Below are positions 3,363 to 14,510 of a stretch of DNA of 64,000 nt, piece by piece. Source of the DNA: Hyphomonas sp. (GTDB lineage: Bacteria; Pseudomonadota; Alphaproteobacteria; Caulobacterales; Hyphomonadaceae); contig PACZ01000024.1 of assembly GCA_002700305.1 (NCBI GenBank), forward strand, positions 124,001 through 188,000, given 5' to 3'. The notes below the pieces were generated by a model, which saw only the letters and a list, made by a program, of their open reading frames with translations, was not told the DNA's origin and did not search any database. Position numbers and translations under genes: made by a program. The stretch's first letter is position 1, and each line of letters starts with the position of its first letter.

Positions 3363-4130
3363 TTACCTGCGATTATCGAGGTCGTCGGCTTCGTAGGTGG
3401 AGAAGTCCACCAGCGTGCCGACCATCTGGAGGTAAGCGACAAGCGCATCGAGTTCCGTCACCTTCTCCGGATTGCCGTCATAGTCGGCGATCCGAACCGT
3501 GCCTTCGCGACCGGCAGCCTCTTCATAGCGGGCCACGAGCGCGTCCTGCGCGTCATAGTCTGCATCAGGATCGGCTTGCGCGATCAGGTCGGCCTGGGCG
3601 TTCTCGATCATCTCGTCGGTATACGGAACCCCTTCGAAACGAAGCGCCTTCAGGTGGTCGTCAATCGTTTCGAAGTGGAGCGTATTATCGGCGAGGAACG
3701 CGTAAGGCGGCATCACCGATTCCGGAACCATGGACTGCGGATCCTTGAGGTGATCCACATGCCAGGTGTCGGAATACTTGCCGCCGACGCGGGCCAGGTC
3801 AGGTCCTGTCCGCTTGGAGCCCCACTGGAACGGATGGTCGTACATGCTCTCTGCAGCCAGAGAGTAGTGACCGTACCGTTCGACTTCGTCCCGGAGCGGC
3901 CGCACCATCTGCGAGTGGCAGACATAGCAGCCCTCGCGGATGTAGACATTGCGGCCGGCCAGTTCGAGCGGCGTGTAGGGACGCATGCCTTCAACTTTCT
4001 CGATCGTGTTCTCGAGATAGAAGAGTGGTGCGATTTCCACGATCCCGCCGATGGCGACTGTAACCAGGATACCGAGCGTGAGTGCCAGAGAGTGACGCTC
4101 AAGCGTTTCGTGCTTTTTTATCAAGCCCAT
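3363..4130 (-). CDS. ccoO: CcoO, monoheme cytochrome c subunit of cbb3 oxidase
   Basis: 255 residues with an N-terminal membrane anchor (about 15-38) and one cytochrome c site, CYVCHSQM (C68, C71, H72), the form typical of CcoO, followed by [16 protein letters not shown] methionine in VMPPY is the likely second ligand. The protein passes electrons from CcoP to the CcoN catalytic subunit. It lies 11 bases after ccoN. It ends 11 bases before the ccoQ start. Confidence 0.97.
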
Positions 4131-4141
4131 GAGTAACTCTC

Positions 4142-5812
4142 CTATTCAGCGGGCTGAAGCGTCGCGGCGGCCGGTGCATCGACGGGACGGGTGCCTTCAG
4201 CGGCAGCGCCGTGGCCGAGAGCCGTGCGGACGAGGTTGTAGGCCATGATCAGCGCACCCGTGAGGTACAGGCTGCCGCCCAGGGCACGGATGATGTAGCT
4301 GACGTGCTTAGCCTCGACAGTTTCAATGAAGCTGTACTCAAGGAAGCCGTACTCGTTGTAGGCGCGCCACATCAGGCCTTCGAGGATACCGGCAAAGTAC
4401 ATCGCAACGATGTAGAAAAGGATGCCGATGGTCGCGAGCCAGAAGTGCCACTCAACAAGCTTCAGCGAGTAGAGGGATGGACGCTTCCAGAGCCACTGCG
4501 TTGCGCAGTAGAGCGCACCGAAGGAGATGAAGCCCACCCAGCCCATCGAGCCGGAGTGAACGTGGGCAATGCCCCATTCCGTATAGTGCGACAGCGCGTT
4601 GACGGCGCGGACGCTCATCAGCGGGCCTTCGAAGGTCGACATGCCGTAGAAGGCGAGGGCGACGACCATCATCCGGACAACCGGGTCAGTCCGCAGACGG
4701 TCCCAGGCACCCGACAGCGTCATCACGCCGTTGATCATGCCGCCCCAGCTGGGCATCCAGAGCATCACGGAGAAGGTCATGCCCAGTGTCTGCGCCCATT
4801 GCGGTAGTGCCGTGTAGTGCAGGTGGTGCGGACCAGCCCAGATGTAGATGAAGATCAGCGACCAGAAGTGCACGATCGACAGGCGGTACGAATAGACCGG
4901 CCGCTGCACCCGCTTCGGAATGAAGTAGTACATGATGGCCAGGAAGCCCGTCGTGAGGAAGAAGCCCACGGCGTTGTGGCCGTACCACCACTGCGTCAGA
5001 GCATCCTGAACCCCGCCGAAGAGCTGATAGCTCTTGGAGCCAGTCAGCGTGACGGGAAGAGTCAGGTTGTTCACGATGTGCAGCATGGCGATCGTGACGA
5101 TGAAGGAGAGATAGAACCAGTTGGCCACATAGATGTGGGGTTCTTTGCGTTTCCAGATCGTACCGAGGAAAACCAGAAGGTAAGCCACCCAGACAATGGT
5201 CAGCCAGAGGTCGGCATACCATTCCGGTTCAGCGTATTCCTTGGATTGGGTGACCCCCATCAGATAGCCTGTACCGGCAATCGCGATGAAGAGGTTGTAG
5301 CCCCAGAAAACGAACCACGGCCACATGCCGCCAGCCAGACGTGTCCGGCAGGTGCGCTGGACGACGTAAAAGCTGGTCGCGATGAGGACGTTGCCACCGA
5401 ACGCGAAAATGACCGCTGAAGTGTGCAGCGGACGCAGTCGCCCGAAGTTCGTCCAGCCAAGCTGTTCGAAGTAGAAGATGTTGGGGAAGGCCAGCTGGAG
5501 GGCGATAATCAGCCCGACCAGGAACCCGGCAATACCCCAGAACATTGAAGCCGTGACGCCGAATTTGACAATCGTGTCTTCATAGACCGTCTGATCGAAT
5601 GGATCCCGGTCACCCAGGCTGCCTGCCCAGAGTGCAAGTGCCAGGAGCCCTACCACGGCGAGGCCGAGGAAGAGCCAGGCATGTGCCCCCATAAGCGGAT
5701 CGGCAGCATGGCTAGCGATCAGCAATGCCAGGATGGCAAATATGCTGGTAAAAGCCGCGACACTGCCAATGCTGGCAAATGCCGAGGACCGTCTTTTTAG
5801 TAACGTGCTCAC
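4142..5812 (-). CDS. ccoN: CcoN, catalytic subunit of cbb3 cytochrome c oxidase
   Basis: 556 residues, about twelve or more membrane helices, of the heme-copper oxidase family C type. Recognisable blocks are [12 protein letters not shown] near the low-spin heme ligand, [10 protein letters not shown], and [12 protein letters not shown] in the CuB/heme b3 region. It reduces O2 to water at the inner membrane. I chose the GTG at 5812 because AGGGGG stands 8 bases upstream; an in-frame TTG at 5872 would add 20 residues without a good site. First gene of the oxidase operon. I looked for a TTGA(T/C)-N4-(A/G)TCAA FNR/FixK box upstream and saw none that fits. Confidence 0.96.
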
Positions 5813-5961
5813 GTTATTGACCCCCTGCGAGTCGTTGGAATTCTGGCGCCTAGATGCCGGTGTCGACTTCAAACCGGTATACGGTAAACTACGGATGGGC
5901 TTCGCTGTCGCATCCGCCTAGTTCACAAAGCGTATTCAAATCCACTCGAAGGAGCAAACAG

Positions 5962-6228
5962 ATGACAAAATGGCTTATGGCGGGAACAGCCCTTCTCGTG
6001 GCCGGTTTGTTGAAGATCTGGCAGCACACCAACGCTCCAATGACTCTGGAAGATTATCTCGCCTTCCGTTGCGGATCTGCGTCTGGCGCTGCTGGCGATT
6101 CCTTTCTGACATTCGCGGGGCATTGCTGGGGATGTCCGGTCGCCGCGATTGGTGCGGCGATGGTCGCTTATAGTGCGGTTATGATCATGGCATCGTCTCG
6201 CCGTCAGGCGCTTGCCGTCCGCCGTTGA
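5962..6228 (+). CDS. Small membrane protein with HCWGCP motif, unknown function
   Basis: 88 residues, ATG with AAGGAG 7 bases upstream, transcribed away from ccoN. Two hydrophobic segments (about residues 4-19 and 57-77) enclose a short loop. The second segment is preceded by FAGHCWGCPVAAIG, so a His-Cys-x-x-Cys-Pro motif sits at the membrane border, and another cysteine lies in the loop (FRCGS). I do not recognise a family. A CxxC beside cbb3 oxidase and its assembly genes could bind metal or take part in thiol chemistry, but that is only a guess from context. Confidence 0.75.
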   Translation: MTKWLMAGTALLVAGLLKIWQHTNAPMTLEDYLAFRCGSASGAAGDSFLTFAGHCWGCPVAAIGAAMVAYSAVMIMASSRRQALAVRR

Positions 6229-6283
6229 CCGGCCCGGTCGCGCGCGTTCCGCATTCTGATACGGCTTACTGGGTACCAGGCAC

Positions 6284-7435
6284 TTGACCGATTTTACCAG
6301 CGACGCGGTATCGACAGATCTTGAAGCGCTGCAGCTGCACCTGAGGTCGATTCTGGCCTCAGTGCCTGACGGCATGATTGTCATTGATGAAAAAGGAAAG
6401 ATCCTCGCCTTTTCCAGCGCGGCTGAAAAACTCTTTTCTTACAATGCAGAAGATGTGATTGGTGAGGATGTCAGCCTGCTTATGGGCGGGCACGACGAAG
6501 CCAACCACCAGACCTACGTCAATAATTATCTCGAGACCGGAAAGCGCCACATCATCGGCGTTGGCCGGGTCGTTACGGCGAAGCGATCAGACGGCGCGCT
6601 CTTCCCGGTCGACCTTAAAATCGGGGAGGCGAAGGTTGGTGATCACTACCTGTTTACAGCCTTCGTTCGCGACCTTTCCGAGCAGCGGCGCAATGAATTG
6701 CGCATGCAGGAAATGCAGGCCGAACTGGTCCATTTTTCCCGTATGAGCGCGGTTGGCACGATGGCCTCAGCGCTCGCCCACGAACTCAACCAGCCTCTCA
6801 CAGCCGTTGCGAACTACCTCGAAGCGGCGCGGGATTTGCTCGAATCCGACTCGGATAATGCGCGTGAGATTCTCCACGAGGCGCTGGATGAGGCCTCTCG
6901 TCAGGCTGTGCGAGCGGGTGAAATTGTCCGCAAATTGCGCGGCTATGTGTCTCGCGGTGAAATCGATGCCCGCTCCGTCACGCTCGCGCCTTTGCTCATT
7001 GATTCGATTGCCCTTGCCCGGATCTCCGGAGACATGGCAGATATCCCGATCGACAAGGACATAGAAGCGGACCTCGGCGCAGTTCTGGCCGATCCTATTC
7101 AGGTTCAGCAGGTGGTCATAAACCTGCTCCGCAATGCCGCTGAAGCGTTGAATGGGGTTGCATCACCCAAAATGCGGGTTGCCGCCCGGAAGCACCCGGA
7201 ATCCTTTGTGACCGTTGAAGTGTGCGACAATGGACCTGGCATGTCTGAAGAGGTCCGGAAAACCCTCTTCAAACCCTTCATGACTTCCAAATCCCAGGGC
7301 ATGGGCCTTGGTTTGTCCATCTGTCAGACGATTATCGAGGCCCATGGCGGGAAGATCGAAGCGACTCCAGCAGCTGAAGGTGGCACGTGTTTTCGGTTCA
7401 CACTCAGGCAGGATACCGCTAGTGGGAATTCATGA
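6284..7435 (+). CDS. fixL: FixL oxygen-sensing histidine kinase (heme-PAS)
   Basis: 383 residues with no membrane segment: a single PAS domain (about 20-135), a coiled linker, a HisKA domain with H-box AHELNQPL (phospho-His H166), and a HATPase_c domain (DNGPG, GMGLGLSIC). The PAS domain has H75 fourteen residues before HIIGVGR; this matches the spacing of heme ligand H200 to H214-I215 in Bradyrhizobium FixL, and R95 matches R220. Heme-based oxygen sensing is therefore likely. TTG at 6284 is the only start that keeps the whole PAS domain; its ribosome site is weak. The stop overlaps the fixJ start (ATGA). Confidence 0.93.
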   Translation: MTDFTSDAVSTDLEALQLHLRSILASVPDGMIVIDEKGKILAFSSAAEKLFSYNAEDVIGEDVSLLMGGHDEANHQTYVNNYLETGKRHIIGVGRVVTAKRSDGALFPVDLKIGEAKVGDHYLFTAFVRDLSEQRRNELRMQEMQAELVHFSRMSAVGTMASALAHELNQPLTAVANYLEAARDLLESDSDNAREILHEALDEASRQAVRAGEIVRKLRGYVSRGEIDARSVTLAPLLIDSIALARISGDMADIPIDKDIEADLGAVLADPIQVQQVVINLLRNAAEALNGVASPKMRVAARKHPESFVTVEVCDNGPGMSEEVRKTLFKPFMTSKSQGMGLGLSICQTIIEAHGGKIEATPAAEGGTCFRFTLRQDTASGNS

Positions 7436-8064
7436 GTGAACAAAGACTGATCCACCTCGTCGACGATGATGATGCTGTAAGGCATTCGGCCAGCTTCATG
7501 CTTCGCCATGCCGGATTCGCCGTAAAGACCTATTCAGATGGCGTGGCGTTTCTTGAAGTCGCCGACGATGCGCAAGCTGGCTGCATCCTGCTGGATGTAC
7601 AGATGCCGCGCATGGACGGACTGGAAGTTCAGGAGCAGCTCAACGCCAAGGGAATCGCCATGCCGGTCATCGTTCTGACCGGACATGGAGACGTGAATGT
7701 CGCGGTTAAAGCCATGAAGGCTGGCGCTGTGGATTTCGTCGAAAAACCCTATGAAAAACAAACGCTTGTTGAGGCGCTCAATCGCGCGTTCCAGCGTCTT
7801 CAGGAGCGCTCCGAACGCGATCTCCTAGTGGATGAGGCTCGTGGCAAGATAGAGCATCTCACACCGCGAGAGCGTGAGGTTCTTGAGGGCCTGGTTGATG
7901 GACACACAAACAAGTCCATAGCCGATACTCTGGATATCTCTCCTCGCACTGTTGAGATCCACCGGGCGAACTTGATGGAGAAACTCGGCGCGACCAGTCT
8001 CTCGGGTGTCCTGCGTATCGCCTTCGCGGCCGGGATTGGCTTTCAGGGCAAGGTTACGGACTAG
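7432..8064 (+). CDS. fixJ: FixJ response regulator (receiver plus LuxR-type HTH)
   Basis: 210 residues. The receiver domain (about 5-120) has the acidic pocket DDDD (11-14), phospho-acceptor D55 in LLDVQMPRMDG, T in VLTGHGD and K in EKPYEK. A LuxR/GerE helix-turn-helix follows (LTPREREVLEGLVDGHTNKSIADTLDISPRTVEIHRANLMEKL). In rhizobia FixJ is phosphorylated by FixL at low oxygen and activates fixK, nifA and related genes. Overlap with fixL by four bases indicates co-translation. No fixK-like CRP/FNR gene lies in the window, so its target here is unknown. Confidence 0.95.
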   Translation: MSEQRLIHLVDDDDAVRHSASFMLRHAGFAVKTYSDGVAFLEVADDAQAGCILLDVQMPRMDGLEVQEQLNAKGIAMPVIVLTGHGDVNVAVKAMKAGAVDFVEKPYEKQTLVEALNRAFQRLQERSERDLLVDEARGKIEHLTPREREVLEGLVDGHTNKSIADTLDISPRTVEIHRANLMEKLGATSLSGVLRIAFAAGIGFQGKVTD

Positions 8065-8130
8065 TACCTAAAGACAGAGACCGGCCGTTCCGCCAACATA
8101 CAGGCTCGATAATCCTGTTGTTGGGTGGCC

Positions 8131-8556
8131 ATGTCGAACGCTTTGCTGAACAGACCAAAAAATGTTGCCGTCATTGACGACAGCGATGCTGTGCGGCGGT
8201 CTTTATCACTATTGCTGACCGCAAGAGGCTACGCGGCGATGGCATTCGCCACAGGAGCCGAATTTCTCAAATCTCCACTGAAGGGATCCTTCGATTTCCT
8301 GTTGATCGATTACAAGATGGAAGATCTCTCAGGCGTCGATGTTTTGAACGCTCTCAGAGGGGAGGGCGTGGATACGCCGGCAGCAATGGTCTCGGGGTGG
8401 GAAACGTCGGGACTGGAGCGCCTGGCGATTGAGGCCGGATTTGCGGCATTCATTCGCAAGCCGATGCTGGACCATATTCTGTTCTCACTCATCGGTCCTC
8501 CGCTAGGCGGGGAAGGGGTGCCGCGCCGGCGCCCGAAAGCTGAAGGCGCAGCTTAA
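8131..8556 (+). CDS. Single-domain receiver protein, possible modulator of FixLJ
   Basis: 141 residues from the ATG at 8131; GTG at 8125 is an alternative and neither has a clear ribosome site. The sequence is one receiver domain: AVIDDSD acidic pocket, phospho-acceptor Asp in LLIDYKMEDLSG, Ser in place of the usual Thr (MVSGWET), and Lys in FIRKPM. A basic tail (PRRRPKAEG) follows and there is no output domain. It sits 66 bases after fixJ. FixT, a receiver-like protein, inhibits FixL in Sinorhizobium and Caulobacter; this could be an analogue, but it has no cysteines, unlike Caulobacter FixT as I know it. Confidence 0.8.
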   Translation: MSNALLNRPKNVAVIDDSDAVRRSLSLLLTARGYAAMAFATGAEFLKSPLKGSFDFLLIDYKMEDLSGVDVLNALRGEGVDTPAAMVSGWETSGLERLAIEAGFAAFIRKPMLDHILFSLIGPPLGGEGVPRRRPKAEGAA

Positions 8557-8711: not shown

Positions 8712-8739
8712 AAGTCGCATAATCATCATTATGGGAAAT
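8712..8739. other. Candidate dif site (XerCD recombination site at the replication terminus)
   Basis: A 28-base site with the layout of proteobacterial dif: an 11-base XerC-like arm AAGTCGCATAA, a 6-base centre TCATCA, and an 11-base XerD-like arm TTATGGGAAAT. Against E. coli dif as I remember it (GGTGCGCATAA and TTATGTTAAAT), the arms match at 7 of 11 and 9 of 11 positions, including the inner CGCATAA and TTATG. It lies in a 208-base non-coding gap between convergent genes. GGGNAGGG octamers change strand across it (see findings). XerCD would resolve chromosome dimers here. Confidence 0.85.
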
Positions 8740-8764: not shown

Positions 8765-9568
8765 TTATCTGATCTCTAAGATCATCCCGTCGAAGCCAGG
8801 CTCCACGGATTTGGGGAGCTCCCTCTTCAGCGTCTCATAATCCAGATCCACGTGCATATTGGTCAGCACGGCGGCTCGGGGTTTGAGTTCAGCGATCCAG
8901 TCCAGCGCTTTCGCGACGTTGGCGTGCGTCGGATGGTCGGTATAGCGCAGCGCATCGATCACCAGCGTATCCAGGCCTTCAAGCGCAGTTTTCGTACGCT
9001 CGGGCAAATCGCTGACATCATTGCAATAAGCGAAATTGTTTATCCTGAAGCCGAGGCAGCGGATGCGCCCGTGCTCCATGTCGACCGGCAATATCGTGAT
9101 ATTGCCGCCTGCTCCGGAAATCTCGAATGGCATGTACGGCGTTATATCGGGCTGAAGGTCGAGTATGGGTGGATAGCCGCCCATGCCTTCAAAGCAGTAA
9201 TCGAACCGCTTTGTCAGGATGTCCCGTGTCGCGGCATTCATGAAAGTTGGCAATGCAGCACGTTGGCGGATGACCAGCGGCCTGACATCATCTATCCCAT
9301 GCACCTGATCCGCATGCTCGTGAGTATAGACGAGCGCGTCCAAACGGGTGACGCCTGCGTCCAGAAGCTGTTCGCGCAAGTCAGGCGAAGTGTCGATGAG
9401 CACAGACGTTACGCCGCCGCTCCCGTCGTCCTTTTCGATCAGCACACAGCAACGCCGCCGCCGGTTTTTTGGTTCTTTCGGATCGCAAGCGCCCCAGTCT
9501 CCACCGACACGCGGGACCCCGCCGGAGGAACCGGTGCCGAGCAGCGTACAGCGAAATCCTGTACTCAT
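8765..9568 (-). CDS. MBL-fold metal-dependent hydrolase, PhnP-like
   Basis: 267 residues of the metallo-beta-lactamase fold. The N-terminus LLGTGSSGGVPR is the hallmark of the RNase Z/PhnP branch, and YTHEHADQVHGID (81-93) supplies the metal ligands H83, H85, D87 and H90, with VDMEHG and NMHVDLDY further on. Members cleave phosphodiesters, often cyclic nucleotides, but the substrate here cannot be read from sequence. It overlaps tatD by four bases (ATGA), a pairing known in alphaproteobacteria, and is the last gene of the dac-tmk-holB-tatD run. Confidence 0.88.
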   Translation of the reverse strand: MSTGFRCTLLGTGSSGGVPRVGGDWGACDPKEPKNRRRRCCVLIEKDDGSGGVTSVLIDTSPDLREQLLDAGVTRLDALVYTHEHADQVHGIDDVRPLVIRQRAALPTFMNAATRDILTKRFDYCFEGMGGYPPILDLQPDITPYMPFEISGAGGNITILPVDMEHGRIRCLGFRINNFAYCNDVSDLPERTKTALEGLDTLVIDALRYTDHPTHANVAKALDWIAELKPRAAVLTNMHVDLDYETLKRELPKSVEPGFDGMILEIR

Positions 9569-13211: not shown

Positions 13212-14510
13212 TTATTCCCCTGTCACAATGCGCCCTTGCGCGATTCCGGCATAGGAGAGGTCTTGCCGGGCACGTTCGGCTTCTGACCGGCTGATCAATG
13301 GTCCGACACGGACACGGAAATAGTCAGCACCATTCACGCGGGCGGGAACAATCGTCACCGGGAGTGAGGCCTGTACGCGATTGCTCAGCGACTGTGCGTT
13401 CGAGATATCCGTGAAGGAGCCGATCTGAACGAAGAAATCGCCGGTCGGTGCTGCAGCCGGCTGAGGATCATAGGTGTAGGTGGGCCGGACTGCGCGTTGC
13501 GGCTCCGCCGAGACGGTTTGATAGGCAACCGGCTCCATGAAATCGTCCGCAGCGACTGGCTGCGGTGCAGCCTCTGCCGGGAACGCTGCTGCCTGAGCAT
13601 AGACCGCGTCCTTGGCTTGCGGTGCGGGTGTTGCGACAGCAGGGGCAGACCCCAGATAGCGAACCCGGAGCGTGGCCTTCCCTGCCCCGCCCATGCCAAG
13701 CTCATTGGCCGCGCGAGGGGAAACCTGAAGCGATGCGCCGTCTTCAAACGGACCGCGGTCATTGACCCGGAGCACGACTTCCTTGCCGGTCTCTTCGTTC
13801 ACAACCTGGATCAGGCTTGGAAGAGGCAATGTCGGGTGGGCGGCCGTCATGGCATCCGGAGCAAAGGTTTCGCCATTGGCCGTAGGCAGGCCGTTGAACT
13901 CGCTTCCATATACAATCGCGACGGCCGTTTCATCGAACACCGGGACAGGGTCGGCAGATACGGAATAGGACGCAGCCGGCGTCAGCTGGCGCGGTGCCTG
14001 CTGGAACTGCTGAGGTGCTGGCGCAGGGACAGGCTGAACCTGGATTGGCGCAGGCGCCGGCGCGGCAACTGCCTGCAGGCTTGGCAGCGCTTCGCTCTCT
14101 ACAGCGGAGATCGAACGCTCGGCTTCGATACGCGCAGCGGCGGCGCGGGCTTCGAAACTGTCGCCAGTGGAGACGGGCGTGCTGGCATAATTCGGGGACG
14201 GGGCCTTCGTGCTCGCATAGTCACGTCCCCCCTGCTCTGCCGGTTGGGCTTGCGGCGAGGGCGAAACGGGCGAACCCGGATAGCGGAATTGAATCCGCGC
14301 CTGCTTCTTCGCGGAGGCGTCTGCAGAACGGCTCGGCTCGATATACTGGGGCTTGCCGGCCGGATACGGCGAAGTTCCGGTCGCATAGACAATCGGTGCC
14401 GGATTGCGGCGGTCAGCATGCGCAGGTGCCACGACAGATATCGCGACCGCGCCAGCCAGGACCAGAGACGTCAGGTGCAGAGATTTTGAATCGGAAGAAA
14501 CGGTCTTCAA
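13212..14510 (-). CDS. rlpA: RlpA-family lytic transglycosylase-like lipid-free protein with SPOR domain
   Basis: 432 residues. A signal peptide ends near APAHA (residue 32). A long Pro/Ala-rich linker (about 35-195) leads to the RlpA double-psi barrel (NGLPTANGETF, ALPLPS-type strand, catalytic Asp in RVNDRGPF near 251), then another linker and a C-terminal SPOR domain (about 355-430, DFFVQIGSFTD) that binds denuded septal glycan. No lipobox cysteine is visible, so despite the family name it seems not to be a lipoprotein. The start is TTG with GAGGTGA just upstream; no better in-frame start exists before the signal peptide. Confidence 0.9.
   Translation of the reverse strand: MKTVSSDSKSLHLTSLVLAGAVAISVVAPAHADRRNPAPIVYATGTSPYPAGKPQYIEPSRSADASAKKQARIQFRYPGSPVSPSPQAQPAEQGGRDYASTKAPSPNYASTPVSTGDSFEARAAAARIEAERSISAVESEALPSLQAVAAPAPAPIQVQPVPAPAPQQFQQAPRQLTPAASYSVSADPVPVFDETAVAIVYGSEFNGLPTANGETFAPDAMTAAHPTLPLPSLIQVVNEETGKEVVLRVNDRGPFEDGASLQVSPRAANELGMGGAGKATLRVRYLGSAPAVATPAPQAKDAVYAQAAAFPAEAAPQPVAADDFMEPVAYQTVSAEPQRAVRPTYTYDPQPAAAPTGDFFVQIGSFTDISNAQSLSNRVQASLPVTIVPARVNGADYFRVRVGPLISRSEAERARQDLSYAGIAQGRIVTGE

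Follow-up and report, generated by a model that had tools for sequence, protein, structure and literature searches.

The window, as we call the whole stretch of 64,000 nucleotides of Hyphomonas DNA that was analysed, carries a 28-base sequence, AAGTCGCATAATCATCATTATGGGAAAT, at positions 8712-8739 of the plus strand (C32:132712-132739 in the genome). It lies within a 208-base gap between two convergent open reading frames, a response-regulator receiver gene on the left (8125-8556, plus strand; PF00072, E = 1.3e-16) and a gene for a metallo-beta-lactamase-fold hydrolase on the right (8765-9568, minus strand; PF12706, E = 2.4e-32), both of which are outside the sequence itself. The 28 bases read AAGTCGCATAA-TCATCA-TTATGGGAAAT and have the 11-6-11 layout and conserved inner arms of a dif site, with a left arm that is predicted to bind XerC (8712-8722), a central hexamer that is the predicted strand-exchange region (8723-8728) and a right arm that is predicted to bind XerD (8729-8739), all given on the plus strand. 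Further to the left, positions 3363-8064 of the window hold genes that resemble those of cbb3 oxidase subunits, along with one for a PAS histidine kinase and one for a FixJ-like regulator.

The assembly of this genome consists of 56 contigs and 3,518,857 bases and is 99.93% complete. With up to three mismatches allowed, the 28-mer was found once and its control not at all, in a search that covered the 56 contigs and not the gaps between them; there is a small chance that an extra copy lies inside such a gap. We also used a core pattern of 14 bases (CGCATAA, TTATG and AA), which is expected by chance 9.8e-5 times per window and 0.0054 times per genome (both strands, base composition of the host contig). 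The site is the sole core match without mismatches in the assembly, and the next-best matches have two. When up to three mismatches were accepted, the core gave 77 matches (40 + 37) versus 92 (38 + 54) for the reversed control, and the weaker matches are therefore regarded as noise. A better dif site elsewhere in the assembly was rejected, since no other core match was free of mismatches.

Comparison with published sites revealed clear likenesses. The dif of E. coli K12 is given as GGTGCGCATAATGTATATTATGTTAAAT in Table 1 of PMC2731167, and shares with the Hyphomonas site its 28-bp length, the 11-6-11 layout, the identical inner bases CGCATAA and TTATG, an intergenic position and a place in the terminus region, while it differs in the right arm (TTATGTTAAAT versus TTATGGGAAAT), the outer bases of the left arm and the centre. 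According to the same source, the centre of dif is weakly conserved between species. The Agrobacterium site in that table, TAATCGCATAAGATATATTATGGAACTT, has the same form, and the dif of Agrobacterium, Brucella chromosome I, Mesorhizobium and Bradyrhizobium share the TCGCATAA left arm and the TTATGG start of the right arm; these four continue with TTATGGAA, whereas the Hyphomonas site has TTATGGGAAAT, a right arm that is not among the rows of the table (PMC2731167). The dif of Caulobacter crescentus (AAGATCGACTTTGTAATTTATGTAAAGT, Table 1 of PMC2731167) is less similar. No Hyphomonas dif was found in the literature searched, and the genus is not named in the main texts of PMC2731167 and PMC3025954, the supplementary tables of which may list one. 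The preliminary description, made from the letters of the window, had proposed a candidate dif with 11-6-11 arms around TCATCA, inner bases identical to those of E. coli and a setting between convergent genes, and had expected it to be single-copy; all of these points hold in the assembly. None of the three outcomes that it named as refuting (a better dif match, further copies or a distant skew switch) was observed.

We further analyzed strand composition around the site. Across the first 400 kb of the host contig, GC skew was +0.0427 to the left and -0.0330 to the right, in agreement with the predicted difference between the two sides. The cumulative skew reached its maximum at C32:152,237, which is 19.5 kb to the right of the site (about 28.2 kb in the window) and corresponds to 0.55% of the genome. 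The curve forms a plateau, with a value of 3437 at the site versus 3542 at the maximum, and the span of positions above 95% of the maximum (129,114 to 158,215) takes in the site. An offset of 0.00-1.39% of the genome (1 sigma) between dif and the skew shift is reported in PMC3025954, so the expectation of a skew extreme near 8.7 kb stood as far as the published offset goes, while the maximum itself lay further right. The claim that the site fixes the terminus was sound in placing the terminus region and slightly too strong in its wording, as the end of replication is, according to PMC3025954, not bound strictly to dif.

KOPS-type octamers on the whole host contig numbered 20 on the plus and 1 on the minus strand to the left of the site, and 9 on the plus and 58 on the minus strand to its right (Fisher P = 6e-12). 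The motif counted, GGGNAGGG, is the E. coli one. The best single polarity switch falls between -202 and +4968 of the site, closer than the skew maximum, with 78 of the 88 octamers agreeing and 10 disagreeing. Its left border is the octamer at 8510-8517 (plus strand), the last plus-strand one before the switch and 202 bases from the site; another at 8359-8366 (plus strand), 353 bases to the left, also points at the site, and the first minus-strand octamer on the right is at 13680-13687 (+4968).

We then considered the position of the site relative to the origin. All eight Hyphomonas genomes searched, including the one under study, have a pair of perfect parS sites spaced by about 520 bases; the reversed-pattern control for the parS consensus yielded between 0 and 3 matches on each strand of the Hyphomonas genomes when up to one mismatch was allowed. 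The distance from the dif-type site to the first parS, as a fraction of the circle, was 0.503 (G016), 0.510 (G020), 0.509 (G019; worked from 3,070,785, 1,249,688 and 3,580,092) and 0.498 (G036), which places the site opposite the replication origin in these four relatives; their chromosomes are taken as one contig each (stated for G036 and G019, inferred from the rounded genome size for G016 and G020) and are assumed to be circular. These ratios leave out G004, in which the contig covers 2.74 of 3.7 Mb, as well as G012, G023 and the fragmented genome under study, in which the contig with dif is not the one with parS. When G036 was sampled at twenty even intervals, 20 kb at a time, GC skew was positive in 10 of 10 from parS to dif and negative in 10 of 10 of the others, so that its sign agrees with the parS-to-dif division in 20 of 20. 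KOPS-type octamers in the same genome numbered 46 plus and 1 minus between parS and dif, and 2 plus and 37 minus in the other samples.

Gene order around the site was compared in 23 same-genus loci (L017-L039) rather than in all 35 relatives, and one of them (L031, an odd place in G030 without such a site) was set aside. In the remaining 22 loci, the one under study included, the metallo-beta-lactamase-fold gene and then a TatD gene adjoin the site without exception. The gene on the left varies more: the response-regulator query was matched in 9 of the 22, and a FixJ-like match likewise lies near the site in 9 of the 22 (both counts including the locus under study). This constancy bears on the possibility that the sequence is a Xer-type attachment scar, or a plasmid-type resolution site, left by an integrated element. 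Sites resembling dif can occur on phages and plasmids, and three viral contigs do match the dif pattern; the site in question is nevertheless single copy, keeps the same right-hand neighbours in every one of these loci, lies opposite parS in relatives and sits at the KOPS-type switch. A mobile-element scar was rejected on the strength of the synteny across the genus, and the reading as a whole seems very improbable to us.

Conservation was assessed with the pattern TCGCATAA-N6-TTATGNNAA at up to one mismatch, one place matched on both strands being counted once. The pattern was matched in 48 of 61 genomes: the one under study, 35 of 36 relatives from its genus and 12 of 24 genomes from its order, where several matches were weak ones with one mismatch; G031 (same genus, 90% complete) gave no match at this threshold. 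Exact matches at the usual site were seen in 28 of the 35 relatives, the right end reads GGGCA in G016, G035, G008, G030 and G034, and the left arm differs in G021 and G010. In an alignment of 15 loci (the one under study included), picked by hand from the 22 with the site, positions 5-13, 17-24, 26 and 27 of the 28 were invariant and positions 4, 25 and 28 nearly so; the left arm thus has an invariant CGCATAA, a nearly invariant preceding T and three variable outer bases. The upstream flank had no invariant column while the arms were nearly constant, and the downstream metallo-beta-lactamase-fold gene was moderately conserved. Beyond these genomes, the right arm is exactly TTATGGGAAAT in 88 of 103 contigs with TCGCATAATNNNNATTATGGGA, although its last three bases are absent from the search pattern, and the contigs concerned include Henriciella, Asticcacaulis, Kordiimonas and Stella. 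The centre varies across the 103 contigs, with TGTATA in 30, TCATCA in 15 and TCAATA in 14. Ten contigs with labels far from alphaproteobacteria (L046, L063, L081, L088, L093, L099, L108, L118, L122 and L128) are kept in these counts, and some of them are probably chance matches or misbinned.

The same data weigh on the idea that the quasi-palindrome acts on the two convergent genes, as an intrinsic terminator or as the binding site of a regulator. The inverted arms TCGCATAAT and ATTATGGGA, which are 89% complementary over 9 bases and lie between convergent genes, would suit such a role. Against it, the AT-rich arms are kept nearly base for base in the 15 loci despite variable upstream flanks, the sequence fits published dif (PMC2731167) and is present in other alphaproteobacterial genera, and its uniqueness in the assembly speaks against a general signal, so that we find this explanation hardly credible. 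Chance resemblance is less credible still and was rejected, since a site picked by eye from 64 kb would have to match 14 core bases expected 9.8e-5 times per window and then be conserved in 35 of 36 relatives.

The genome also encodes the proteins that would act at such a site. An FtsK with a gamma domain is encoded at C29:36,628 (PF09397, E = 3.8e-27, over the cut-off), where a 511-residue part scores 550.5 against an NCBIfam cut-off of 1566 that belongs to a full-length model. A XerD-like recombinase is encoded on the same contig (C29:17,804; TIGR02225, 289.8 bits versus an equivalog cut-off of 329.6), which also carries parS, and a XerC-like recombinase on C3 (TIGR02224, 304.8 bits versus 335.15). 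Of the two NCBIfam models, each recombinase scores better with the one expected for it, both below the equivalog cut-off; the tyrosine recombinase subfamily cut-off of 279 is passed by the XerD-like protein (308.8) and missed by the XerC-like one (243). Six further, weaker tyrosine-recombinase-like matches were found in the genome. The KOPS-type convergence and the XerC-like, XerD-like and FtsK-gamma genes are features shared with the XerCD-FtsK system of E. coli.

We interpret the 28-base site as the chromosomal dif of a Hyphomonas species, with a probability of about 0.97, because it is unique in the assembly, conserved, opposite parS in relatives and at polarity switches, and because the three protein families are present. 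By homology, XerC and XerD are predicted to bind the arms as assigned above and to recombine at the site. Dimer resolution by FtsK and XerCD is established knowledge in E. coli. On that model, an odd number of crossovers would join two sister chromosomes into a dimer, and the septal translocase FtsK would pump the DNA along the KOPS polarity until dif is met. The gamma domain of FtsK would then activate XerD at the right arm (TTATGGGAAAT), XerC at the left one (AAGTCGCATAA) would complete the exchange round the central hexamer, and the dimer would be converted into two monomers before division. The site is an ordinary chromosomal dif of a known kind, and it leaves the picture of dimer resolution unchanged. 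For this genome, it locates the region of the terminus and sets the polarity of the replichores. Hyphomonas, a budding bacterium that serves in studies of chromosome segregation, thereby gains a well-supported dif, and the GGG of its right arm offers natural variation with which the co-evolution of XerD and its arm could be studied.

Among same-genus relatives, a second, different place was found in G030 only. This dif-like site (G030:C12:2168-2195; L207) is of the TTATGTTAA type, with an E. coli-like right arm, TTATGTTAAGG. Its neighbours are ordinary metabolic genes, such as those for acyl-CoA dehydrogenase and biotin carboxylase, and the genome is fragmented and carries the usual site as well; the second site is taken for chance or a foreign contig.

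Two of the viral contigs share 25 identical bases of Hyphomonas-type dif with the centre TATCTA (L192, 12585-12612, minus strand; L194, 8785-8812, plus strand). Each has a match to a terminase large subunit, and blastn (E = 1e-5) found no other DNA similarity between them in the stretches compared. The centre TATCTA occurred in 0 of the 103 pattern-bearing genome contigs. These sites are candidate Xer-dependent attachment sites; alternatively, the contigs could be prophage ends with host DNA. Given the occurrence of the TTATGGGAAAT form in Hyphomonas, Henriciella, Asticcacaulis, Kordiimonas and Stella and the 25 bases shared by the two viral contigs, we entertain, without favouring it, the idea that this form may be a dif class of its own, common to many alphaproteobacteria and exploited by tailed phages, which would perhaps integrate via the host XerCD.

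A RepA-type (PF10134) replication protein is encoded on another contig of the genome under study (G000:C31:31951-32643), so that a plasmid is likely in this genome; the 28-mer was not found on this contig with up to three mismatches. Two dif-type sites with different centres were present in three same-order genomes (G038, G046 and G054), the last of which has a third, weak match as well. In G046, the first site has 13 plus-strand octamers on the left and 13 minus-strand ones on the right within 40 kb. The second site (about C9:132,845; L199-L201) is on the contig that also holds a RepA-type (PF10134) gene, at C9:112,988, and has 10 plus-strand octamers and then, further left, 4 minus-strand ones on one side and a single minus-strand one on the other. 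KOPS-type polarity on this contig flips close to repA, between 110,945 and 113,261, and a second time at the site, where GC skew showed no clear switch. In G054, too, the second site (C42, position 4,608; L204) and a RepA-type (PF10134) gene are on one contig; gene and site are separated by about 20 kb (G046) and 31 kb (G054). A further RepA-type gene lies on C10 of G046, and that of G038 is on a different contig. The second sites of G046 and G054 possibly mark a secondary replicon with its own dif, perhaps using XerCD; among the matches listed, there was no literature on Phycosocius replicons, nor on Aquidulcibacter or chromid.

Both sites of G038 (C30 and C71; L205, 1-142, and L206, 1-141) are accompanied by the same repeat of about 142 bases, which ends 12-13 bases from the left arm. 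IS1202-family elements target dif at 5 bp from the XerC arm (PMC10132070), and the likeness to the G038 repeat lies in the adjacency to dif, while the spacing and apparently the transposase differ. A similar copy of the repeat elsewhere encodes, as judged by eye, an IS30-like transposase.
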